A stretch of DNA of 40,706 nucleotides from Phycisphaeraceae bacterium (GTDB taxonomy: Bacteria > Planctomycetota > Phycisphaerae > Phycisphaerales > Phycisphaeraceae): NCBI GenBank assembly GCA_020831765.1, contig JAFIFY010000044.1, positions 1 to 40,706 of the forward strand, given 5' to 3'. A program made the position numbers and the translations under genes. This document shows positions 143 to 31,605 of the stretch, piece after piece. The notes under the pieces are model-generated. The model saw only the letters and a program-made list of their open reading frames with translations. It did not search any database and was not told the origin of the DNA. The stretch's first letter is position 1. Each line of letters begins with the position of its first letter.

Positions 143-1303
143 TCAGCCCAGGGGTTTTCGGTAAACGCGGTACCGCTTGCTCGGCTCGATCTTGATCATG
201 TGCCGGATGGACTGGAGGCTCTTGAGGTTGCTTTCGGCGATCCAGGACAACTCGACCGGTGCATATTTGAGCCTGGCGTTCTGCAGCGCCATGAAGTTGA
301 ACAGCGCCGGTGCGATGCCCATGTGTCGGCAGTCCTCCCGAACCGCCGCGCCGAAGATCCGCGCCGCTCCCCGTCGGCGACGCGCCATGAGCAGGTGCCA
401 CCACCCGAACGGAAACAGCCTGCCGTTGCATTTCTTGAACGCCGGATTCAGGTCCGGGATCGCCAGCATGCAGCCGACCACCTCGCCCTTGTATTCGGCC
501 ATCGCGATGAACTCCGGGTCGGCGAAGAAGCGGAACTCCGCGACCAGCTCATCGAATTCCCGGTCCGTAACCGGTACAAAGCCCCAGTTGTCCTTTCGCG
601 CATCATTGAAAAGATGGTTGAGTTGGATGATCTGCCGCTTGAAGTCGGCTTTGTCAAGACTGCGGATGACCAGGCCCGGGTGGCGGTCGAAGATGCGTTG
701 GGATACGCGCTGGAGCTTGTCAAAGTGTTCGTGGGAAATGTCCATGTCGCGATCTTGGGCCGTCATGGCCAGAAGATCCTGCTCCTTGACCATGCCCAGG
801 GCATCCATGAACTTCGGGTAGTAATCGGGGTTGTAGGGCATCAGGAACGCCGGGGGTGAATCAAAGCCCTCGACGAGCAGGCCGCATTCGCTGTTGATCG
901 AAGGATTCATCGGCCCGACCATGCGGTCCATGCCCATCGCGGTCAGTTGCTCGGCCGCGAAATCGATCAATGCCCGGGCCACCTCGATATCGTCGATGCT
1001 CTCGAAGAAACCCCAGAATCCCGTGCGGTCTTCGTGATGCCGGTTGTGCAGATCGTTGCGGATCACGGCGATGCGCCCGACGATCCGGCCATCGCGCCAG
1101 GCCAGCGCCGGCAGGATCATTCCATGCTCGGCAAAGGCGCTTCGACCCGGCCGCGGGTCAAAGAGTTTGACCTGTGTGAACCGCATGGGTGGCACCCACA
1201 GCGGATCGTCGGCATAGAGCTTCCAGGGCAGGTCGATGAACGCGGCGCGCTGCCGTCGATCGGCCACCGGGCGGACCTCGATCGGGCGGTTGGATTCGGC
1301 CAT
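143..1303 (-). CDS. GNAT-fold acyltransferase, candidate bacterial ceramide N-acyltransferase
   Basis: This is a 386-residue protein with an N-terminal part containing LYADDPLWVPP and a C-terminal GNAT-type core. The core has a degenerate acyl-CoA loop (VREDCRHMGIAPAL) and a following beta strand and helix (ELSWIAESN). It is about twice the length of a simple acetyltransferase, as in the YghO-like family. The gene lies 28 bases after the stop of the serine-palmitoyltransferase-like gene on the same strand, so the two are probably one operon. In Caulobacter the bacterial ceramide synthase bCerS is also a GNAT-like protein working with Spt and the reductase CerR. By position and family I infer that this protein may acylate a sphingoid base. 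The ATG at 1303 is chosen over an upstream TTG at 1312. The fold is fairly sure, the substrate is not. Confidence 0.7.
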   Translation of the reverse strand: MAESNRPIEVRPVADRRQRAAFIDLPWKLYADDPLWVPPMRFTQVKLFDPRPGRSAFAEHGMILPALAWRDGRIVGRIAVIRNDLHNRHHEDRTGFWGFFESIDDIEVARALIDFAAEQLTAMGMDRMVGPMNPSINSECGLLVEGFDSPPAFLMPYNPDYYPKFMDALGMVKEQDLLAMTAQDRDMDISHEHFDKLQRVSQRIFDRHPGLVIRSLDKADFKRQIIQLNHLFNDARKDNWGFVPVTDREFDELVAEFRFFADPEFIAMAEYKGEVVGCMLAIPDLNPAFKKCNGRLFPFGWWHLLMARRRRGAARIFGAAVREDCRHMGIAPALFNFMALQNARLKYAPVELSWIAESNLKSLQSIRHMIKIEPSKRYRVYRKPLG

Positions 1304-1331
1304 GGCTTGCAACGGATTCAGGTGAAACGTG

Positions 1332-2621
1332 TCAGGTACCGGTGCTCAGCACGCCCGCCGCCTGCCGGCGCGTGTAGTGGTTGAACGCCTCTTCGAGCGA
1401 ATCCACGAAGTAGTGCAGATCGCTGGGCTCGTGCATGGCGGTGGGGATGGTACGGAGGATGCCTTGATTCCGCCTCACGGCGGGGTAGAGGACCGGCGCG
1501 GCGTAGATGCCAAAATCGCGGCGGAGGATGTCGGCGATGAATAACGCGGTATTGCCGCCCAGACTGATGGGTGTGATCGGGGTCTGGGTCTGGCCGATAT
1601 CAAAGCCCGCTTGCCGCAGCCTCGCCTGGAACAACCGGGCATTGCTCCAGAGCCTGGCTCGCCGGTCTTCGGCCTGTTCGAGAAGCTCCAGGGCTTTGAG
1701 AGTCGCGGTGGTGACCACCGCATTGGCCGCCTTGGTGAACAGCAGTGTCGGGGCCAGGTAGCGGATATAGGCCACCACGGCCTTGTCCCCGGCGATGAAT
1801 CCTCCGCTGGTGCCGAAGGCCTTGCTGAACGTGCCGGCGTGCAGGTCGATGCGATCCTCACATTTGAGCACCTCGGCGGCTCCGCGTCCGTGCTGGCCGC
1901 AGACGCCGTGGCCGTGGGCATCGTCGACGATCAGACGCGCGCCGAACTTGTCTTTCAGATCGCAGATTTCGGGGATCGGGGCGATATCCCCGTTCATGCT
2001 GTAGACCCCGTCGATGACGATCAGCTTGGCCTGGCGGGGGTCAGCGCGGGTGAGGATGCGCTCGAGGCTGGCCGGGTCGTTATGCCGGAAGGTCCTCATC
2101 TGGGCGCCGGAGATTTTCGCCCCGGCGATCAGACTGGCATGGGCGAACTGGTCGAGGATGATCAGGTCGCCGGGCTTGGCCAGGCAACCGACCATGCCGG
2201 TCATCGCATTGGCCCCGGTGGCGAACGTGAGGGCCGCCTCGGTTCGCTTGAACTCGGCGATGCGCCGCTCCAGTTCCAGGTGCAGCTCGCAGGTTCCGGT
2301 GAGCGGGCGTGCCCCCATCGGGTTGCCGATCCCGTGCGTCATGGCCGCTTCCGCGGCCGCTCGGCGCACCGCCGGATGCACACTCAAGCCCAGGTAATCG
2401 TTGCTGCTGAACTGGATGAACCGCCTGCCGTCCAATTCGAAATAAGGACCGGCATTATCGACCGGGGACACATCGAACAGCACCCGCATTGCCACGTCGA
2501 GTTCCTCGGGCGAGGCAATGCGTTGCTCGTTCAGGAAATGCACGCATCGACTGAATATGTCGGCCACACGCACCTTCGCTCTCTCGTAGGCGTCCGTCTG
2601 AGAGAATTCGGGATGTTCCAA
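1332..2621 (-). CDS. spt: Alpha-oxoamine synthase, serine palmitoyltransferase-like
   Basis: This is a PLP-dependent fold-type I enzyme of 429 residues that condenses an amino acid with an acyl thioester. The PLP lysine is K267 in GTFSKAFG. The stacking histidine is H161 in FAHASL, and the DxAH aspartate and histidine are D233 and H236. These positions nearly match the residues known in Sphingomonas serine palmitoyltransferase. The C-terminal part (ILRTIPTAMH) resembles bacterial Spt-like members more than BioF or Kbl. The other possibilities are 8-amino-7-oxononanoate synthase or 2-amino-3-ketobutyrate CoA ligase, but no biotin or threonine-catabolism gene is nearby. Neighbours (a GNAT acyltransferase, an SDR reductase) favour the first step of sphingolipid synthesis. 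The start is a TTG at 2621; the leader runs back to a putative promoter at 2729-2756. Confidence 0.72.
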   Translation of the reverse strand: MEHPEFSQTDAYERAKVRVADIFSRCVHFLNEQRIASPEELDVAMRVLFDVSPVDNAGPYFELDGRRFIQFSSNDYLGLSVHPAVRRAAAEAAMTHGIGNPMGARPLTGTCELHLELERRIAEFKRTEAALTFATGANAMTGMVGCLAKPGDLIILDQFAHASLIAGAKISGAQMRTFRHNDPASLERILTRADPRQAKLIVIDGVYSMNGDIAPIPEICDLKDKFGARLIVDDAHGHGVCGQHGRGAAEVLKCEDRIDLHAGTFSKAFGTSGGFIAGDKAVVAYIRYLAPTLLFTKAANAVVTTATLKALELLEQAEDRRARLWSNARLFQARLRQAGFDIGQTQTPITPISLGGNTALFIADILRRDFGIYAAPVLYPAVRRNQGILRTIPTAMHEPSDLHYFVDSLEEAFNHYTRRQAAGVLSTGT

Positions 2622-2680
2622 TCCGCCGCGACGCCCAAGCCTGTAAATCCGTAGACTGGCGGAAATCGGCCTGCCCCCTG

Positions 2681-2709
2681 TGGGCAGGATGAATCGGAGT
2701 CAGTACAAT
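2681..2709 (+). promoter_or_regulatory. Possible promoter for the GH3 gene
   Basis: TGGGCA (2681-2686) and TACAAT (2704-2709) are separated by 17 bases, a reasonable sigma-70 fit. The -10 box sits inside the palindrome at 2696-2715, so a protein bound there would block it. The GH3 start codon follows at 2817. Confidence 0.3.
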
Positions 2710-2715
2710 GACTCC
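2696..2715. promoter_or_regulatory. Palindrome between divergent spt-like and GH3 genes, possible operator
   Basis: GGAGTCA (2696-2702) and TGACTCC (2709-2715) are a perfect 7-base inverted repeat with a 6-base spacer. It lies in the 195-base divergent intergenic region. It overlaps the putative GH3 -10 box and falls in the leader of the spt-like transcript. It could be a shared operator or an mRNA hairpin; no regulator gene is nearby. Confidence 0.35.
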
Positions 2716-2728
2716 AAACTTGCGTCAC

Positions 2729-2756
2729 ACTTTAGTTTGCAGCGCCCGCTTTGCAA
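2729..2756 (-). promoter_or_regulatory. Possible promoter for the spt-like operon
   Basis: Read on the minus strand, TTGCAA (2751-2756) and TAAAGT (2729-2734) are spaced by 16 bases. Transcription would begin near 2722, leaving a leader of about 100 bases that contains the palindrome at 2696-2715. Confidence 0.3.
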
Positions 2757-2816
2757 CTCTGCCCATTTTACAGGCCCGGAAATCGTTACGGGACCAATCG
2801 GAGACCAGCATCGGCC

Positions 2817-4406
2817 ATGCACCTCCTGGAATGGATCGTACAGCGAATCCTCGATCGCCGCGAAGCCGAAATTCAGCGGGCCCGGCGTGATCCGGCCAAG
2901 ACACAGTCGGACCTGCTGCTCAGCCTCCTTCACGCCGCGCGGAAGACTGAGTTCGGCCGGAAGCACGGCTTCAGGCACATCCGCTCGGTGGACCAGTATC
3001 AGAGCCAGGTTCCCATCGGCCGCTATGAACAGTTCGACCCGCTCTGGCGACGGGCGTTGGATGGCGAACGTGATGTGACCTGGCCGGGCCGGATTCGGTA
3101 CTTTGCCTTGACCAGTGGTACGACCACCGGTAGCAGCAAAGTGATGCCGGTTTCGGGCCGGGCAATTCGATATAACGTTATTTCTGGAAAAAGTTTATGT
3201 TGTGCTATCCGGCCTTGGATCGGGCCCCGGTTCATGGGCGGGCCTTCGCTGTATTTTGGCGGATGCACGCGGCTGCGTCCCCAGGGCCGGGCACTGATCG
3301 GCGATGCCAGTGGAATCGCCTCGCGCCACGTGCCCCGCATCGCCCGCAGGCACCGGCTGCCCGCCCAGGAGATATCCGATCTCGATGACTGGGAGCAAAA
3401 GGTCAACCTGATCTGCACCCGATATCTCGATGCCCCGGTGCAATGGGTCGTGGGCCTGCCGTCCTGGACGCTCATCCTTTTCCGCCACCTCATCGACCAT
3501 GCCCAGGCCGCCGGCAGGCCCGTCGAGACTGTGATCGAAGTGTGGAAAAACCTAAAAGCATTTGTCCATTTTGGCATGGCGTTCGAGCCGTACCGCCGGG
3601 CGTTCGAGCAGATGCTGGGGGCTCCCATCCCCATGATCAACACCTACTCATCGTCCGAGGGGGGGATGAACGCGATCCAGTGGGACCCGGCGGATCCGAC
3701 CATGACCCTGGAATTGGACACCGGCACGTTTTACGAGTTCGTGCCGGTCGAGGAGTTGAACCGGCCCGATCCCACCCGCCTGACCCTCGACGAGGTCCAG
3801 GTCGGTCCGGCCTATGCCGTGATTCTCACCACGGCCTCGGGCATCTGGGCCTATGACATTGGCGATGCGATTCGCTTCACCCGGCTCGACCCGCCGGGCA
3901 TCGTCTTCGCCTCTCGAACCGCCCATCAGCTCAACACCCTGGGCGAGCACGTTATCGAAGAGCATCTGGAATCGGCCATGGCGGATGCCTGCCAACGGAC
4001 CGGGCTCCATATCGAGCATTACATGGTCTGGAGCGAGACGCCGACGGCCAATGACCCCCGCGGATTTCACGATTGGCTTGTCGAGTTTACCCGTAACCCG
4101 GATCCAGACCTGTTGGCCCGATTCGCTCGGATTCTGGACCAGAACATCTGCCGCCAGAGCGATGACTACGCCGCGCATCGTGCCAACGGTTTCGGAATGG
4201 CGCTGCCGCTCGTGTCTCCGGTGCCCAAGGGCACGTTCTACCGCTGGCTGGCCCAGCAGGGCAAACTCGGTGGACAGCACAAACTCACACGCATTCCACG
4301 AACCGCCGAGATCGTCAGGCAGATACGTGAACTCGCGGGACTGCCCAAGTGCCCTCGGCACGCTTCTCCGTGGTCGGCCGAAGAAGATGTCTCGCTGCCC
4401 AATTGA
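2817..4406 (+). CDS. GH3-family adenylating enzyme (acyl acid-amido synthetase fold)
   Basis: This is a 529-residue member of the GH3 branch of the ANL adenylating superfamily, known from plant jasmonate and auxin conjugases. Three motifs are visible: the ATP loop LTSGTTTGSSK (about 98-108), YSSSEGG (about 277-283) and YDIGD (about 346-350). Family members adenylate a carboxylic acid and usually pass the acyl group to an amine. The acid and amine cannot be read from the sequence. The gene is divergent from the spt-like operon and convergent with an SDR gene, so a role in activating an acyl chain or decorating a sphingoid lipid is an inference. ATG 2817 is chosen because it begins the conserved amphipathic N-terminus and has GGAG about 13 bases upstream; longer in-frame starts give unconvincing sequence. 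Confidence 0.82.
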   Translation: MHLLEWIVQRILDRREAEIQRARRDPAKTQSDLLLSLLHAARKTEFGRKHGFRHIRSVDQYQSQVPIGRYEQFDPLWRRALDGERDVTWPGRIRYFALTSGTTTGSSKVMPVSGRAIRYNVISGKSLCCAIRPWIGPRFMGGPSLYFGGCTRLRPQGRALIGDASGIASRHVPRIARRHRLPAQEISDLDDWEQKVNLICTRYLDAPVQWVVGLPSWTLILFRHLIDHAQAAGRPVETVIEVWKNLKAFVHFGMAFEPYRRAFEQMLGAPIPMINTYSSSEGGMNAIQWDPADPTMTLELDTGTFYEFVPVEELNRPDPTRLTLDEVQVGPAYAVILTTASGIWAYDIGDAIRFTRLDPPGIVFASRTAHQLNTLGEHVIEEHLESAMADACQRTGLHIEHYMVWSETPTANDPRGFHDWLVEFTRNPDPDLLARFARILDQNICRQSDDYAAHRANGFGMALPLVSPVPKGTFYRWLAQQGKLGGQHKLTRIPRTAEIVRQIRELAGLPKCPRHASPWSAEEDVSLPN

Positions 4407-4570
4407 AGGTCACCCCGTGGTTTCCATATCGGTCCCATGCCGGGTGCCCGCGGCGTTGTGCCGTCTCGAGCAGGCCGGGGGCGGGTCTGGTGGGCGGGTC
4501 CGGGGGGTTTGCTCGGATCGGGCTTGCTCTTGGCGGGTTCTCGACCGCATCACCGTCCGGTGGCCAAAGA

Positions 4571-5617
4571 TCAACCCTTGGGATAGCGCCAGTTTTTCTG
4601 TCGATACCACGCGATCGTCCGCGCAAAGCCGTCGGTCAATCCTTCGTTGGGCGTAAAGCCCAGCTCGCGCTGCGCCTTGGCGAAGGAACATAACCATGCC
4701 GGCTGCAAAAGGTCACGCACCTTTCGCCGACTGAGGACCGGAGCGCGGCCGGTGATCATCCACCAGAGCTGGCCCAATTCACCACCCAGGCGCGCCGGTA
4801 GCGCGGGAATACGTATCACCTTCAGCGTCCGTCCCGCCGCCTGCTCCAGGGCCTGCATCACCTCGCTCATGCGATGATGACCGCTGGCCAGGTAGTACAT
4901 CCGTCCGGAAGCACCCGGCTTGTTCGCGGCCAGAATCATCCCCGTGGCCAGGTCCGAAGCGCTGACCAGCGAAACCCACCGATCGCCGCGCCCAAGCATC
5001 AGTGAGCGACCACGATGGGCCGCCAGCCGGAAAAGATCGAAGAAGTTGTGGTCACCGGGCCCATAGACCGCCGGGGGGCGAACGATGACCACATCGATGC
5101 GGTCGGCCATGGCCAGGGCGACGCGCTCGGCTTCGAGCTTGCTCTGGCCATAGTGGTCACCGGGGCGGGGCGGGTCATCCTCGGTCACGCCAATCGTCTC
5201 GATGTCCTCGACCGGGGCACTCAGTCGCGAACGAGGCACCGGGCCGCCGGCGGCCAGGCTACTGACCAGCACGAAGCGTTCCACGCCGGCCCGGATGGCG
5301 GCCTGAATCAGGCTCCAGGTCGATTGCACGTTGGCCTGCCGGTATTCCTCCAGCGTCCGCCCACGCGTCAAGCCCGCCGCATGGTACAGCGTCCGCACAC
5401 CCTCAAGCGCTTCGACGGCACGCTCCGGATCGGTGTAGGGGCAAACCGTCCATTGCATCGGCCCCGGACCGAAGACCGCATGGCGGCTTCGCTCTGAACG
5501 TGTCAGGCCGATGACCGATTCGCCCTGATCACGCAACTGTCCGCACAGGTGACTGCCGACCAGTCCACCGGCTCCGGTTATCGCGATATTTGGATTCACC
5601 TGATGTTTCCCGTTCAC
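4571..5617 (-). CDS. NAD-dependent epimerase/dehydratase (extended SDR), candidate ceramide reductase CerR
   Basis: This 348-residue extended short-chain dehydrogenase has a Rossmann glycine motif, TGAGGLVG (14-21). It has a catalytic serine near 119-120 and the YGQSK pair Y156 and K160. Its C-terminal segment (GRAPVLSRRKVRDLLQ) resembles the 3-beta-hydroxysteroid-dehydrogenase-like subgroup that includes the Caulobacter sphingolipid reductase CerR and hopanoid-linked HpnA. No hopanoid genes are seen, while an spt-like and a GNAT gene are close by. Reduction of a 3-keto sphingolipid is therefore my preferred inference. The start is GTG at 5617; a GTG six codons later is also possible. The 3' end faces the GH3 gene across 164 bases in which I find no gene. 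Confidence 0.68.
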   Translation of the reverse strand: MNGKHQVNPNIAITGAGGLVGSHLCGQLRDQGESVIGLTRSERSRHAVFGPGPMQWTVCPYTDPERAVEALEGVRTLYHAAGLTRGRTLEEYRQANVQSTWSLIQAAIRAGVERFVLVSSLAAGGPVPRSRLSAPVEDIETIGVTEDDPPRPGDHYGQSKLEAERVALAMADRIDVVIVRPPAVYGPGDHNFFDLFRLAAHRGRSLMLGRGDRWVSLVSASDLATGMILAANKPGASGRMYYLASGHHRMSEVMQALEQAAGRTLKVIRIPALPARLGGELGQLWWMITGRAPVLSRRKVRDLLQPAWLCSFAKAQRELGFTPNEGLTDGFARTIAWYRQKNWRYPKG

Positions 5618-9657: not shown

Positions 9658-11154
9658 GTGGATGCCGCCTTTCAACAGTGTATTAACCCGGACTGCCAAG
9701 CAACTTATCGCATTGATGAGGTGCTGGTGTCTTGTCCGAAATGTGCCGGGTCGGGTGTGGCTTCACTGCTGGATGTGCGGTATGACTACACCCGTCTGCC
9801 CATGCCGCGATCATTCGGTTTTTTTGAGCATCGCTGGATGACGCGCGGCGAAAACGTACAGGGGCAGCTCGATTTCTCCGGTGTCTGGCGGTTCCGCGAA
9901 CTGCTGCCCTTTTATCGCTCCGAGGGCGACATCGTCACCATCGGCGAGGGTCGGACAAACCTTCAGGATGCGCGGCTGCTGGCACCGATGATCGGCTTGG
10001 ATTCGGGCAATCTGTTCCTGCAGTATGAAGGGCTGAACCCGTCCGGCTCGTTCAAGGACAACGGCATGGCCGCGGCGTTCACCCACGCCCGCATCGTCGG
10101 CGCTCGGCGTGTGGCGTGCGCCTCGACCGGCAATACCAGCGCCTCACTGGCGATGTTCGCCTCGCTTTCGGGGGTTGAGGGGTTTGTGTTCATCGGGTCG
10201 GGCAAGATCGCCTATGGCAAGCTCAGCCAGGCGTTGGATTACGGGGCGCGGACGCTTCAGGTGCAGGGGGATTTTGATGCCTGCCTCAAGCGCGTGCGTC
10301 AGCTCGCGGTGGATCATCCGGAACTTGGCATCTATCTGATGAACAGCGTCAACCCCTTCCGGCTGGAGGGGCAGAAGACGATCATGTACCGCGTGCTCGA
10401 GGCGCTGGACTGGCAGGTGCCGGATTGGATCGTGGTGCCGGGCGGAAACCTGGGCAATTGTGCCGCCTTCGGCAAGGCGTTTAGCGAATTGGCGTGTCTT
10501 GGGCTGATCGATCGACTGCCGCGCCTGGCGGTGATTCAGGCGTCCGGCGCCAATCCACTGGCCGAATTGGTCAATGAACACGGGCTGAAGTGGAACGATG
10601 GCCGATTCGATCGCGATTTGGTCGACGACTACTACGCGCGGCTGGATCGTGAGAGTCGCCGCGCGCGGACCATCGCCAGTGCGATCGAGATCGGCCGACC
10701 GGTGAACCTGCCCAAAGCGCTGCGTGCCCTGGAGGTCATGGACGGTGTGGTCCGGCAGGTGGATGATCCGACGATTCTGGAATACAAAGCGCTGGTGGGT
10801 CGGTATGGCTTCGGCTGCGAGCCGGCCAGCGCGGCATCGGTGGCCGGGGCGCATCAACTGGTCCGTGAGGGGATCATCCGGCCGACGGACCGGGTGGTCT
10901 GCATTCTCACCGGGCATGTGCTCAAGGATCCGGATGCCACGGTCAAGTATCACACGGGGATCGATGTCAAGGCTGTGCAGGAGCAGGCCCCGCGAACCGA
11001 GCCCACGGGCCGTTATGCCGTGCGTCCGATGGCCGTGGCCGATGATCTGGAGGCCATCATCCAGGCCATCGGGGCCGATGCCGCCGCCATGGAGAAGCTG
11101 CCCGACCAGCCGCGTACCCCAACGCCGGCCAATCTGCCGGTGAGTGAGTATTAG
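9658..11154 (+). CDS. thrC: Threonine synthase
   Basis: This 498-residue fold-type II PLP enzyme converts O-phosphohomoserine to threonine. An N-terminal zinc-ribbon-like module carries C8, C13, C26 and C29. The PLP lysine is K133 in [10 protein letters not shown], and the phosphate loop is VPGGNLGN. A segment of about 60 residues after the catalytic domain ([12 protein letters not shown] onward) is typical of long bacterial members, and its role is not evident. The start is a GTG at 9658 with GAGG eight bases upstream. The serine/threonine dehydratase family shares the fold, but the zinc ribbon and overall motif set favour ThrC. It stands alone, with no hom or thrB next to it. Confidence 0.9.
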
Positions 11155-26542: not shown

Positions 26543-29500
26543 TCATCTGAATTCGTGCCGGACCTTTTCCCACCATTCCCTGAACTCGCTCCGCTCCAGG
26601 CGTGCCTGAGCGCCTCCGGTGTGGTCCAGCCTGGTCCCGGCCAGAAACTGGGCGATGTTCTGAAGTGTCTGGAGGTCGCGCTCATCAGGCACCAGAGTTG
26701 TCGTTCGCCTGATTTGATCGCGATCAACCGTGAGGAGCTTCCGGCCATCCGGGGTGAACATCGGATGATGGATGGCAAGGTCGTGTTCGAGGACGGGGGT
26801 GATCGGATCGCCCGTCCTCGAGTCCCATACCCGGGCACCGTGGCCTGAAGTCTGGGTCAGGACGAACCGCCCATCCGGACTGAAGCGGACATAAGGCACG
26901 AATTCCCGCCCGTGCATCATCGGCGGTGTGGTCGTCTGGCCCGTGTTCAAGTCCCAGAGCCGCGCGGTGTGATCGTAGCTTCCGGTCACCAGCCGTTGGC
27001 CGTCCGGGCTGAAGTCCGCGTGGTAGACCAGGGTTCCATGGACCATGGGCCCGACGACTTCGGCGCCGGTCTGGGCATCCCATACACGAGCGGTGCCATC
27101 ATAACCCGCCGAGACAATGCGCCTGCCATCGTTGGAAAACCTGACATGGATAATCTGCTCATTGGGCCAGTGCATCGACCCTGAGGAGATGTTCCGGCCA
27201 TCAGGCACCGACCAGATGAGCATTTCACTCTGGGCCGTGGTTGTTGCCGCCTTGAGCCCATCGGGACTGAATGCCGCGCCAAGTACCGGATGCTCATGCA
27301 TCAAAGGTTCGCCGAGTTGCCGGCCGGTCGCCAGATTCCAGATTCTGGCGGTTCTGTCGTGCGAAGCGGTCAGCAGATGCCCGCCATCCTCACTGAACAC
27401 GACTTGCGCGATCGCCGACGCATGGCCGGCCAGTTCATGTTCCAGGTGCCAGTCCTCGGTCCGGTAGATTCGCACGGCGTGGAATCGATCGACCACGGCC
27501 AGTCGGTCTCCATCGGGGCTGAAGATCAGGCGCAGCGCGGCGACCCGGTCGGCCGGCGCTGTCACCCGCCCCGTCCGCATGTCCATCAGCGATATCGAGC
27601 CGTCCGAGGCGATCCGCGCAAGATACTGACCCGCCCGGCACAGCGCTGCCATCGACATCGCATCGTCCGCCCGCGAATCGGGGCGTTGTTCGATCGGCGG
27701 CAGTGTCCAGACCCGGGCCGTCCAGTCCCAACCGACGGTCACCGCCATATCGCCGCGCTCATTGAAAGCGCCAGCCTTCACCATGCGGCCATGAATCATC
27801 GGATGCGTAATTGGCTTGCCCGTGTGGGCATCCCAAAGGCGTGCGGTATTGTCGAGACTGGTGGTCAGGACGCGCCGGCCGTCGGCGCTCAACTCCGCAT
27901 GCGTCAGACGCGCCTTGTGCATCATCGACCGACCGACCTGTTGGCCGGTGCGGCCGTCCCAGACCCGGGCGGTCTGGTCATCGCTGGCGGTGAGCACATG
28001 GCGACCGTCTTCACTGAACGATGCGAAGATCACCTCATCTTCATGCCACATTGGCGGTGCGATCAGCTCACCCGTGGCGGCGTCCCACAATCGAGCCGTG
28101 CGGTCCGTTCCGGCGGTCAGGATTCGAGCGCCCTCGGGGCTGAACCTCACCGAGTTCACCCGCCGGCCGTGGTTGATCGAATCAAGCCGCAGCGCCCCGG
28201 ATTCGGCATCCCAAATCCGTACATGACCGTTGACATCGGCCGTGGCGATGCTGCCACCGTCCTCACTGAACGCCGCGCTGGTTATTCGGCCGTGGTGTTC
28301 CAATCGCAGCGCCGGCGCATCGGGCCGCGTCAGGTCCCAGACCCTGGCAAAGCGATCCGGCCCGGCGGTCACCAATCGTGTTCCATCCGGGCGGATTCGG
28401 ACCTCGTCCACCGGCCCCGGGTGCTTCAGGAACGGCGCGACCCGCTCGCCCGTTCGGGCATCCCACACGCCCACGGTTCCATCGTTGGCGGTGCTGACGA
28501 TCCTTCGCCCGGCGGGACAGTAAGCCACGGAGTGAACGATCGGTCCGTGAGGCATGACCGGCTCGATCAACCTTCCACCATCAGCCTCGAACTGTCGCAC
28601 CTGTCCGTTCCATCCACCGGTGGCGAACGTCCGGCCGTCAGGTCTGAAGGCCACGGCCTCCAGATTCCCCTCGTGAAAGATCAGATGCCTGGCTTGGGGC
28701 GTGCGTTCGAGCAGGACGGCGAACGCGGTCCGCAGATTCTTCGCGCTGGTCTGGGTCCATTGGCGCACTTCGGCGCTGAGCTTGGGATCTTCGGGCAGTG
28801 GGGAGGTTTCCGTGAGCCGCAGGGCTTCGATCAGGCGAAGCATGGCCGAGCCAAGCTCATCCGATTCCCAATCCTGCCAGGCTCGCTGCATCTGCTGTTG
28901 AATCAGCCCGCGCCGTTCGTGCCACGCGCGCAGTTCAGCCTCCCGAGCGTTCTCGACCGCGAAAAGGCGCTGCCGCTCGGCTTCACGATAGCTTGCCAGA
29001 GCCAGGCTCAATCCCCCCAACAACGAGAACACCACCAACGCCGCGGCCACATAGGGCAGCTTGTGTCGTCGAAGGTGACGCATCAGGCGGTCGTGGGTCG
29101 GCTCGGACGCGGCCTCGATGAAGTCGCGGTCTTCGAGATAGTTGCGTATGTCCTGGGCGAAGGCGGCCAGCGACGAGAATCGCTTTTCTTTTTCAAGGCG
29201 CAGCGCCTTGCCCACCAGGTGGCGGACACGGCCCCGAAGAATGCGGGCGAATCGTTCCGGTCCCATTCGCCCACGCCGCGCGGCCACTTCAAGAGCGCGC
29301 TGGCCATCAATCGTCGACCAGCGCGCCCACAGTGATGGCCTGGGCTCATTCCGTATGGTCTTGACGACTTCATCCACGGACTGACGCCGCATGGATGGGC
29401 CCGAAAGCGGAGGAACCCCGATCATCAGCTCATAAAGCACCACGCCCAAGGCAAAGATATCCGTGCGGGTATCCACCTCCATTGCCTGAATGCCGGCCTG

Positions 29501-30571
29501 TTCCGGGGCCATGTATTCAGGTGTGCCGGCGAACCGCCCCAGATCGACGCTCACGGACGCTTCGGAAAGGCGCGTATCCGGCTCGATCGCCTTGGCCAGG
29601 CCGAAATCGACGATCTTGGGCATTGGCAGTACCGCCATTTTCCCTTCGGTCGCCACGATCAGTCTTCGATCGCGCACATCCAGGGCCTCGACCGCGCGGC
29701 GGACATCAAAGACCAGGATGTTGTCCGGCTTGAGATCACGATGAATCAGGCCCTGCGCATGGGCGTAGTGCATCCCCTCGGCGATCCGCGCCACCAACTC
29801 AAGCCGCTGGGCGACAGTCAATCGTCGGTCATCGCAGTATTGCGCCAGGGGCAGGCCGGGCACGTACTCCATGATGATGTAAGGACAGCCGGATCGCGTG
29901 ACACCCGAATCCAAAATCGAGGCGATGTTGGGATGCGACAGCCTGGCCAGCGCCTGCGCTTCGGCGTTGAACCGCGCCACCGAACGGGCATCGCTCACTT
30001 CGCGATGCAGAAACTTGATCGCCACATTAAGGTCTGGATTCCGCCGGGTGGCCAGCCAGACCTCGCCAAATCCGCCCGATCCCAGACAGAGCTTCAATCG
30101 GTAGGGGCCGATGGTCCGGCCGGTCCTTGGCCGACCGTCCCAGCCACCCTGCGCCCCGGATTCTGAGCCTTCCATCCGGGTTTCCTGACCCAGCGATGCC
30201 GTCCGGCTGATCGGCGGTTCGGATTCCGCTTCGATGTCATCCCGGTATTCCGTGCCAAGCAATGCCTCAAGCGCCACCGTCCGCCGGCCCGCCTCGCGGT
30301 AGGCCCGGATCAGGGCGCGTGCGCCCGGTGTGCCCGGGGCAAGCAGATCGTCGGGCAGGATCGAGCGGTAGTGCTCAAGGTCGTGGTCCAGGAGCGCTGC
30401 GATCCGCCGGCGGGCGTCGTATTCAATCAACTCCGCGAGTTGTGCCGGGTCCTTCAGGACATCGTCTTGAATAAAAGCGCGCAGATCGGGAGGTGGATCA
30501 CGGCGCCACGCCTCGGCCAAGCGCTTTAGCGCATCGGCTTGGGAGTATTCCGATGGTGACCGATCGCTCAT
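26543..30571 (-). CDS. Transmembrane Ser/Thr kinase with about 16 WD40 repeats
   Basis: This is a protein of 1342 residues. Residues 1-150 are a cytoplasmic N-terminal region of unknown role. The kinase domain (about 156-483) has a Gly loop (GSGGFGEVW, 164-172), catalytic Lys186, HRD at 277-279 and DFG at 322-324. Between HRD and DFG are 43 residues where most kinases have about 18, so there is an insert of about 25 residues ending in KMAVLPMPK. One hydrophobic segment spans about 507-528. A helical stretch precedes about 16 WD40-like repeats (about 640-1300), probably two seven- to eight-bladed propellers in the periplasm or cytoplasm. Such kinases are common in planctomycetes. Targets and ligands are unknown. 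ATG 30571 is chosen over an upstream frame that reads as non-coding. Confidence 0.9.
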   Translation of the reverse strand: MSDRSPSEYSQADALKRLAEAWRRDPPPDLRAFIQDDVLKDPAQLAELIEYDARRRIAALLDHDLEHYRSILPDDLLAPGTPGARALIRAYREAGRRTVALEALLGTEYRDDIEAESEPPISRTASLGQETRMEGSESGAQGGWDGRPRTGRTIGPYRLKLCLGSGGFGEVWLATRRNPDLNVAIKFLHREVSDARSVARFNAEAQALARLSHPNIASILDSGVTRSGCPYIIMEYVPGLPLAQYCDDRRLTVAQRLELVARIAEGMHYAHAQGLIHRDLKPDNILVFDVRRAVEALDVRDRRLIVATEGKMAVLPMPKIVDFGLAKAIEPDTRLSEASVSVDLGRFAGTPEYMAPEQAGIQAMEVDTRTDIFALGVVLYELMIGVPPLSGPSMRRQSVDEVVKTIRNEPRPSLWARWSTIDGQRALEVAARRGRMGPERFARILRGRVRHLVGKALRLEKEKRFSSLAAFAQDIRNYLEDRDFIEAASEPTHDRLMRHLRRHKLPYVAAALVVFSLLGGLSLALASYREAERQRLFAVENAREAELRAWHERRGLIQQQMQRAWQDWESDELGSAMLRLIEALRLTETSPLPEDPKLSAEVRQWTQTSAKNLRTAFAVLLERTPQARHLIFHEGNLEAVAFRPDGRTFATGGWNGQVRQFEADGGRLIEPVMPHGPIVHSVAYCPAGRRIVSTANDGTVGVWDARTGERVAPFLKHPGPVDEVRIRPDGTRLVTAGPDRFARVWDLTRPDAPALRLEHHGRITSAAFSEDGGSIATADVNGHVRIWDAESGALRLDSINHGRRVNSVRFSPEGARILTAGTDRTARLWDAATGELIAPPMWHEDEVIFASFSEDGRHVLTASDDQTARVWDGRTGQQVGRSMMHKARLTHAELSADGRRVLTTSLDNTARLWDAHTGKPITHPMIHGRMVKAGAFNERGDMAVTVGWDWTARVWTLPPIEQRPDSRADDAMSMAALCRAGQYLARIASDGSISLMDMRTGRVTAPADRVAALRLIFSPDGDRLAVVDRFHAVRIYRTEDWHLEHELAGHASAIAQVVFSEDGGHLLTASHDRTARIWNLATGRQLGEPLMHEHPVLGAAFSPDGLKAATTTAQSEMLIWSVPDGRNISSGSMHWPNEQIIHVRFSNDGRRIVSAGYDGTARVWDAQTGAEVVGPMVHGTLVYHADFSPDGQRLVTGSYDHTARLWDLNTGQTTTPPMMHGREFVPYVRFSPDGRFVLTQTSGHGARVWDSRTGDPITPVLEHDLAIHHPMFTPDGRKLLTVDRDQIRRTTTLVPDERDLQTLQNIAQFLAGTRLDHTGGAQARLERSEFREWWEKVRHEFR

Positions 30572-30669
30572 AGGACATCCCCGCCAACCGCCGCGGCCCG
30601 ATCCGAAGGCTACCTCCATGATCCCGCGATCGGGAGGCGCACCAATCGAGCCGACGCCGCCGCGACATC

Positions 30670-31605
30670 TTACCGATGCCCGCCCGGGCCGCATCCTCGA
30701 GGGTCATGGAAGACGCTCGCGGCGGCATGATGGATCAGAGTATGCCGCGCCGCCAGGCGATGGTGATCGTGGTCATAGCCGCCGCCGATGACACAGGCGA
30801 CGGGCAAGCCACGAGCCCGGCAATGTTCCAGAACCCGCCGGTCGCGCTGCATCAGGCCCTCGTCGGTCAAGGCCAGCCTGCCCAATCGATCGCCCGCGTG
30901 CGGATCGACGCCCGCATCGTAGAGCACAAGGTCCGGTCGGGCACGATCCACCACATCCGGCAGCACCGCATCCAGCTTCGCCAGATACATCCGATCGTCC
31001 ATACCGTCGGGAAGCTCGATGTCCAGATCGCTCTTGCGCTTGCGTAGGGGAAAGTTTCGTCCGCCGTGCATGCTGAAGGTGAAGACCGAAGGATCATCGA
31101 CAAAGATTTGTGCCGTGCCATCGCCCTGGTGAACATCCAGATCGACGATGAGTACGCGTCGGGCCAGCGCCTCGTGGATCATCCGCCGCGCCGCGACCGC
31201 CAGGTCATTGAAGATGCAGAACCCCGATCCCTCACCGGCAAAGGCATGATGCGTTCCGCCCGCCGCGCTGCACGCGATGCCGTGCTCAAGCGCCAACCGG
31301 CAGGCCAGGATCGTTCCGCCCACTTCCATACGCGTGCGGTGGATCAAGCCTTCGGACCAGGGCAGGCCGATGCGCCGCTGCTCATTCGCATCCAGGCCGC
31401 CACCCACCACCTTATCGATCCACGCCCGGGTATGCGCGCCGGCCAGTTCCACTTCGGTTGCCGGTTCCGGCGCGATGAACGTGAACCGATCGGCCGCGGC
31501 ATCGGATTCCAGCAGCGCCCGGATGATGTTGAACTTGGGCATGGGAAAGCGATGCCCCTCGGGCAGGGGATGGACATAATCGGGATGGTGAACGATCGGG
31601 ATCAT
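30670..31605 (-). CDS. Histone deacetylase-fold (AcuC-like) hydrolase
   Basis: This 311-residue zinc-dependent deacetylase belongs to the HDAC/AcuC/acetylpolyamine amidohydrolase superfamily. The paired active-site histidines are H119 and H120 in GGTHHAFAGEGSGFC. FNDLAVAA follows. The zinc ligands D157 and H159 lie in VDLDVHQGDGTA, a further Asp in YDAGVDPHAGD, and GGGYD is near the C-terminus. Its substrate could be an acetylated protein, polyamine or acetoin-related compound. It is the last gene of a minus-strand operon with two small membrane proteins and the TIGR01777 epimerase, and starts 24 bases after the upstream stop. The chosen ATG at 31605 begins the conserved segment. Confidence 0.88.
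   Translation of the reverse strand: MIPIVHHPDYVHPLPEGHRFPMPKFNIIRALLESDAAADRFTFIAPEPATEVELAGAHTRAWIDKVVGGGLDANEQRRIGLPWSEGLIHRTRMEVGGTILACRLALEHGIACSAAGGTHHAFAGEGSGFCIFNDLAVAARRMIHEALARRVLIVDLDVHQGDGTAQIFVDDPSVFTFSMHGGRNFPLRKRKSDLDIELPDGMDDRMYLAKLDAVLPDVVDRARPDLVLYDAGVDPHAGDRLGRLALTDEGLMQRDRRVLEHCRARGLPVACVIGGGYDHDHHRLAARHTLIHHAAASVFHDPRGCGPGGHR

Follow-up and report, generated by a model that had tools for sequence, protein, structure and literature searches.

The window, a contig of 40,706 nucleotides from a Phycisphaeraceae bacterium (JAFIFY010000044.1 of assembly GCA_020831765.1) considered over its whole length, carries between positions 143 and 5617 a group of four genes encoding an alpha-oxoamine synthase (AOS), a GNAT-type acyltransferase, a GH3-family enzyme, and an extended short-chain dehydrogenase/reductase (SDR). 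Judged from its sequence, this cassette probably serves the biosynthesis of a sulfonolipid of the capnine type, N-acyl-capnine, rather than that of ceramide, the product proposed in an earlier note on the same DNA. Of that proposal, the homologous enzyme set and the idea of a sphingolipid-like lipid stand; ceramide as the product is not supported, because the synthase has a lysine 30 residues beyond the catalytic one and a PMG[A/S]R insert, and joins the cysteate enzymes SulA and 28eh in trees, not the 20 rows of the serine palmitoyltransferase (SPT) type. Sulfonolipids, which serve as lipids of membranes and in signalling, are known mainly from Bacteroidota. The host genome is of 4.7 Mb and 98% complete, and the AOS nearest to that of the window (73% identity) comes from a genome of the same family, which supports the planctomycete origin recognised earlier.

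Residues and phylogeny of the synthase

The synthase gene (1332..2621, minus strand) starts with TTG and encodes 429 amino acids matching Pfam Aminotran_1_2 (E 7.3e-56). Pfam, NCBIfam, an alignment of the active site, a census of 95 AOS, and trees together point to a predicted cysteate (3-sulfo-alanine) C-fatty acyltransferase of the SulA/CapB/CFAT type with Lys267 as its catalytic lysine. The residues H161, D233, H236, and K267, cited in the earlier note as matching SPT, lie exactly where it placed them, counting from the TTG start, and the match is true. They are not diagnostic for SPT, since all 95 AOS of the census, a collected set and not a random sample, have the four of them, BioF, KBL, and HemA included; as evidence for an SPT they were rejected.

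A residue that may tell the enzymes apart is known from SulA of Alistipes, which, according to the accessible text of PMC9304779, uses cysteate and neither serine nor phosphoserine, and whose active site is that of Spt except for Lys281 in place of Ala. With Lys251 set in chain 7u7h, His140, Asp217, His220, Gly255, Lys281, and Arg376 agree with the numbering of that paper, and the first Asn of the NNYLG motif is its Asn53, the second being 54. Lys281 of SulA is the catalytic lysine +30, as is Lys297 of the window synthase (Lys267 +30; codon 1731..1733, minus strand). At this position the census recorded Ala in 32 proteins, Thr in 24, Lys and Asn in 17 each, Ser in four, and Val in one. The 17 with Lys are SulA (7u7h), 28eh, to which its depositors gave the name cysteate-C-fatty acyltransferase, and 15 proteins of the window type: that of the window, those of loci L100-L111, of which L101 and L102 are contigs of one metagenome-assembled genome (MAG), and those of genomes G390 and G210. 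Exactly the same 17 have a one-residue Pro insert in the motif PMG[A/S]R, which reads MGAR in 12 and MGSR in five of them; in the window synthase it is PMGAR, Pro101-Arg105 (codons 2307..2321, minus strand), the Pro being the insert. Ala is found at +30 in both SPTs of solved structure used (3a2b and 2jg2), in the annotated Spt of E. coli BL21, and in all 13 planctomycete synthases that lie beside a GNAT gene; where an SPT is expected to show Ala, the window synthase has Lys297. The motif R-x-IPTA-x-H was dropped as a marker, as its I is replaced by T or V in L151 and L152 and PTA-x-H also occurs in the HemA of Rhizobium.

Family models leave the substrate undecided, because the synthase passes none of the cut-offs of the 20 NCBIfam families listed; against the SPT models it scored 320.5 of 640, 285.2 of 500, and 210.2 of 670 bits. 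In a tree of 46 rows, 13 window-type proteins grouped with SulA and 28eh (support 100/97), apart from SPT (96/99). After removal of the diagnostic columns and of the rows L092, L081, and L126, all three present in the 46-row tree, the same grouping persisted (92/95), and forcing the window type together with SPT cost 12.6 log units (approximately unbiased (AU) test, p 0.020, a borderline rejection). A tree of 55 rows, again without these three rows and with HemA and AOS of Bacteroidota and Bacillota added, recovered the window type with SulA and 28eh (100/97) and a 20-row SPT group (100/98). The clustering with BioF or Kbl against which the earlier note had warned did not appear; the trees put the window synthase outside both.

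As a separate observation on this superfamily, plasmid pBdorCL06T03-4 of Phocaeicola dorei (L207) encodes an AOS with an unusual CAAQ motif, adjoining a TetR regulator gene; it groups weakly (96/68) with L033, an AOS from the family to which the window belongs.

The cassette and its recurrence

The AOS, the GNAT enzyme on the same strand, and the extended SDR are present where the earlier note had located them, as Pfam matches and homology to BL21 proteins confirm. The GNAT gene (143..1312, minus strand; 389 amino acids, PF00583 E 2.5e-7) lies downstream of the AOS gene with 19 bp between the two; from its homology to YghO and its place in the GNAT clade of the cassettes, its product is a predicted (keto)capnine N-acyltransferase of the YghO/bCerS type. 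Between the AOS and SDR genes, divergent from the former and convergent with the latter, sits a gene that the earlier note left unmentioned although it recurs in related loci. It encodes an OlsH-like, acyl-adenylate-forming enzyme of the GH3 family (2751..4406, plus strand; PF03321/PF23571/PF23572), with the ATG at 2817 (residue 23) as a possible true start. Three nucleotide-binding motifs are recognisable in it, and its sole NCBIfam hit is NF052613 (OlsH), at 403.5 bits and below the cut-off of 620. The SDR gene (4571..5617, minus strand; 348 amino acids, PF01370 E 7.7e-32) encodes a predicted 3-keto reductase of the Epi/CerR type, assigned from homology to Epi of BL21 and from its recurrence beyond GH3; it passed no NCBIfam cut-off, the best model being HpnA with 121 of 368 bits. 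The short region separating the AOS and GH3 genes (2622..2750, assigned to neither strand), defined by the gene coordinates and by a divergent layout shared with eight of 12 related loci, is a putative shared control region.

The likeness to bacterial ceramide genes was assessed with BL21 proteins, the link to Caulobacter coming through PMC9386255, the accessible part of which gives yghO as the counterpart of the N-acyltransferase gene CC_1154 and ECD_02852 (epi) as that of the dehydrogenase gene. The window GNAT enzyme is 33% identical to YghO (E 6e-65) over 385 columns covering residues 11-388 of 389, and the AOS and the SDR match Spt (33%, E 4e-58) and Epi (28%, E 3e-29), respectively, over most of their length. 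Chance is excluded because the homology to the proteins of the BL21 sphingolipid locus is long, and the sequence comparisons support the three as homologues of a bacterial ceramide set. The GH3 protein has no match among the BL21 sphingolipid-locus proteins. The acyl-AMP ligase of BL21 found weak matches in the host genome (the best with E 2e-14 and 33% identity over about 100 residues), and no acyl carrier gene was seen adjoining the locus, as the earlier note had also remarked, the genome-wide search not having included the BL21 acyl carrier protein.

A scan of genome contigs returned 30 loci, among which 12 (L100-L111) have a synthase with 52-72% identity to that of the window, the next being at 39%; synthases of the window type were found in MAGs of Planctomycetota and Lentisphaerota. 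Absences of neighbouring genes, here and below, rest on a tblastn re-check. The GH3 gene is divergent from, and adjoins, the synthase gene in eight of the 12 loci (L100-L103 and L105-L108). In its place L104, from a Lentisphaerae MAG, has at 433-2052, upstream of the synthase and GNAT genes, one gene for an acyltransferase of the PlsC type and one for a classical SDR (adh_short), which suggests a different composition of the same pathway; L109 has GNAT and SDR genes, L110 lacks both, and the sequence of L111 starts only 0.3 kb ahead of the synthase. The genomes to which L104, L109, and L111 belong gave no GH3 match, and the genome of L110 gave only distant matches. Seven loci carry the GNAT gene downstream of the synthase, L108 with the gene broken into two frames, and L109 carries it upstream; the sequence available for L100, L101, and L103 stops, at the edge of a contig or stretch, within 0.3 kb of the synthase, and in L110 no GNAT gene stands beside the synthase. 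An SDR gene like that of the window is located beyond GH3 in L101, L105, L106, and L108; L102 and L107 are cut, and in L100 and L103 it is absent from that position.

Six of 392 sampled genomes of the phylum carry a window-type synthase (at least 599 bits, the next being 391), with the GH3 gene adjoining in four; in G210 and G390 no GH3 match was found at 1e-20 and no GNAT gene beside the synthase. The trait is patchy, because only one (G033) of 36 other genomes of the window's family, some of them incomplete, has a synthase above 41% identity. Of the 392 genomes, 43 have GH3 (E up to 1e-20) and 130 have the acyltransferase (E up to 0.001); as no link between the two was seen outside the cassette, the idea that GH3 generally accompanies the acyltransferase was dropped. 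Counts of PF00155 in six genomes were uninformative. Two further loci deserve a record of their own: in G390 (L188, 10479-13579) sulfatase and sulfotransferase genes are located about 2-5 kb from the window-type synthase, and in G152 (L192, 4733-8055) a GH3 gene directly follows a gene for a GMC oxidoreductase, another GH3 context in the phylum.

The neighbours also tend to group by cassette. In a tree that includes six near non-cassette GH3 proteins, those of the cassettes form their own group (eight rows, 80/85), apart from four others including L179, which is called OlsH-like on account of its motifs, the ones that the accessible part of PMC12493201 reports for OlsH. The GNAT enzymes of seven cassettes form a clade (97/97) together with that of G191, where the GNAT and synthase genes are on different contigs; the GNAT of L109 falls elsewhere, and L108 was left out. 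The SDR tree leans toward a cassette group (63/94), not firmly.

The proposed pathway and its alternatives

In the proposed pathway the AOS, given its active-site residues and phylogeny, would join cysteate to a long-chain acyl thioester, probably an acyl-acyl carrier protein (acyl-ACP) as in SulA, in a condensation that yields 3-ketocapnine and CO2. The GNAT-type enzyme would then N-acylate 3-ketocapnine, by its homology to YghO/bCerS, and the SDR, homologous to Epi/CerR, would reduce the 3-keto group to yield N-acyl capnine, which is to sulfonates what ceramide is to sphingolipids; if the order is that of Caulobacter, acylation may come before reduction. For the GH3 enzyme a precedent exists in a characterised bacterial relative, OlsH, the GH3-type lyso-ornithine lipid synthetase of Singulisphaera, which, as far as the accessible text of PMC12493201 goes, uses free fatty acid and ATP to form N-acyl ornithine and requires neither coenzyme A (CoA) nor ACP. 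With this precedent and its conserved nucleotide-binding motifs, the cassette GH3 may adenylate a free fatty acid, and would then either pass the acyl group to an amine, forming the amide directly, or provide the other enzymes with activated acyl groups. In the accessible part of the review PMC10191378 the N-acylation of capnine is described without a named enzyme. That the cassette constitutes a complete sulfonolipid pathway outside Bacteroidota, with a bCerS-type GNAT enzyme for N-acylation and GH3 as a fourth, ATP-dependent, amide-forming or acyl-activating component, is put forward only tentatively.

Several observations weigh against a sulfonolipid product. The pocket Ala of MGAR is replaced by Ser in five of the 15 window-type proteins, and the GH3 and GNAT genes are missing beside some of the synthases (L110, G210, and G390). 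Searched with phmmer against PDB, the window synthase scored nearly equally with 28eh (251.7 bits) and the SPT of S. multivorum (250.8 bits). With its structure model (mean pLDDT 84) Foldseek put the SPT of S. multivorum at rank one and SulA at rank eight, so SPT and SulA are not told apart by the modelled fold, which is no help in choosing the substrate and slightly favours the SPT side. In the 55-row tree the AU test for the window type forced together with SPT gave p of only 0.051, the SulA/28eh branch is long (1.21, that of the window type being 0.72), and only two reference enzymes serve as anchor; because of these three points the relation of the window type to the cysteate enzymes is regarded as likely, not proven. 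Of the 14 genomes that carry a window-type AOS, none gave a score above the cut-off of the cysteate synthase model TIGR03844 (the highest being 87.9 of 324.9 bits), CapA-type synthases not having been searched for. Finally, we know of no sulfonolipid from the window's group.

It is unlikely, though not far-fetched, that the locus is a ceramide locus after all, in which the AOS uses serine, the GNAT enzyme and the SDR complete dihydroceramide, and Lys297 and the insert are incidental. The matches of GNAT and SDR to BL21 ceramide-locus proteins, the nearly equal phmmer scores, the first rank of an SPT in Foldseek, and the AU value in the larger row set are all consistent with it, and the sphingolipid potential of Planctomycetota has already been reported from the Black Sea, with Spt-like genes and proteins in 138 MAGs (PMC11334938, accessible part); yet the synthase has Lys and not Ala at +30, it has the insert, its place in the trees is with the cysteate enzymes, and in other planctomycetes it is Ala-bearing synthases of the SPT type that adjoin GNAT genes. 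It is quite improbable that GH3 makes an aminolipid of the N-acyl-ornithine type, as in Singulisphaera, the neighbouring genes forming a separate pathway. Although OlsH is the only NCBIfam hit of the GH3 protein and yields N-acyl ornithine in planctomycetes (PMC12493201, accessible part), the score remains under the OlsH cut-off, the cassette proteins group apart from L179 with its OlsH motifs, the gene stands beside the AOS in eight of 12 loci, and the seven genes examined between 143 and 9100 showed no hydrolase family, such as would include an OlsI-like hydrolase. Even less probability is assigned to an AOS that takes a different amino acid, one whose side chain is acidic or bulky, and so builds an undescribed sphingolipid-like backbone, to which GH3 would add an amide-linked amino acid or acyl group. 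The deep split between the window type and SulA/28eh, the Ser in the pocket motif of some members, the lack of TIGR03844 matches over the cut-off, and the absence of a GH3 enzyme from those parts of the capnine literature that were accessible are compatible with such a substrate, but the residues that part the window type from SPT are precisely those of the cysteate enzymes.

For a sulfonolipid product a source of cysteate would be needed in the host. A threonine-synthase-like gene in the window (9658-11154, plus strand), 4.0 kb from the SDR gene, was rejected as a cysteate synthase: it scored 248.4 bits with thrC (cut-off 167.1) and 31.3 with the cysteate model. No tblastn homologue of it was found at 1e-8 in L100-L111, L187, L188, and L195, several of these stretches being short, and the gene is considered ordinary or undecided. 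The host genome has a second thrC above the cut-off, on C44, and a third, weak match (C134) that by eye reads as a cysteine synthase; one of the two threonine-synthase-type genes could serve another beta-replacement, e.g., the formation of cysteate. Elsewhere in the window, at 26543-30694 on the minus strand, inspection of the translation by eye shows a large protein, predicted to be a Ser/Thr kinase, in which WD40-like repeats are numerous.

Significance and comparison with known systems

In the literature, surveyed mostly through titles and the beginnings of abstracts among the matches listed and with subscription papers largely outside the search, no sulfonolipid genes in Planctomycetota and no GH3 partner were found. 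The main text of PMC11334938 has sulfonolipid in its reference list only and does not contain cysteate; PMC11211663, in its accessible part, reports homologues of Cys, CFAT, and KCR across 13 phyla of human-associated genomes, and the word Planctomycet is absent from its main text. If confirmed, the reading of the cassette as a sulfonolipid locus would extend these lipids to Planctomycetota and Lentisphaerota, and would provide a candidate enzyme for the N-acylation of capnine as well as a testable job for a GH3 enzyme. It would also mean that SPT-like genes from the environment are not readable as ceramide genes without a check of one residue, and counts of "Spt-like" planctomycetes may include makers of sulfonolipids.

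Among known systems, OlsH shares with the cassette GH3 the GH3 family and the three nucleotide-binding motifs; the cassette protein differs from it in scoring below the family cut-off, in grouping apart from OlsH-like proteins, and in its neighbours. The ceramide genes of E. coli BL21 and Caulobacter (spt, yghO/bCerS, and epi/cerR) resemble the window in that homologues of all three BL21 proteins are present there; in contrast to them, the window AOS lacks the Ala of the SPT type, neither an acyl carrier nor an acyl-AMP ligase of the BL21 type adjoins the locus, and a GH3 gene is added. The planctomycete loci with Spt and GNAT genes (L084-L099), 13 of 16 with a synthase nearby, belong to the same phylum as the window and share its acyltransferase family, and no GH3 match was found in these 16 stretches. 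Their synthases differ from that of the window: all 13 have Ala at +30, 12 have GSR (GSP in L092), and the same number group with SPT, L092 forming a long branch outside it. The closest likeness is to SulA/CapB/CFAT of Bacteroidota (7u7h and 28eh), with which the window AOS shares the fold, the catalytic residues, Lys at +30, the PMG[A/S]R insert, and the position in the trees; it is set apart from SulA by an identity of 32-33% to 7u7h in the structure search, by its occurrence in MAGs of Planctomycetota and Lentisphaerota, by its GNAT, SDR, and GH3 neighbours, and by an activity that is predicted.

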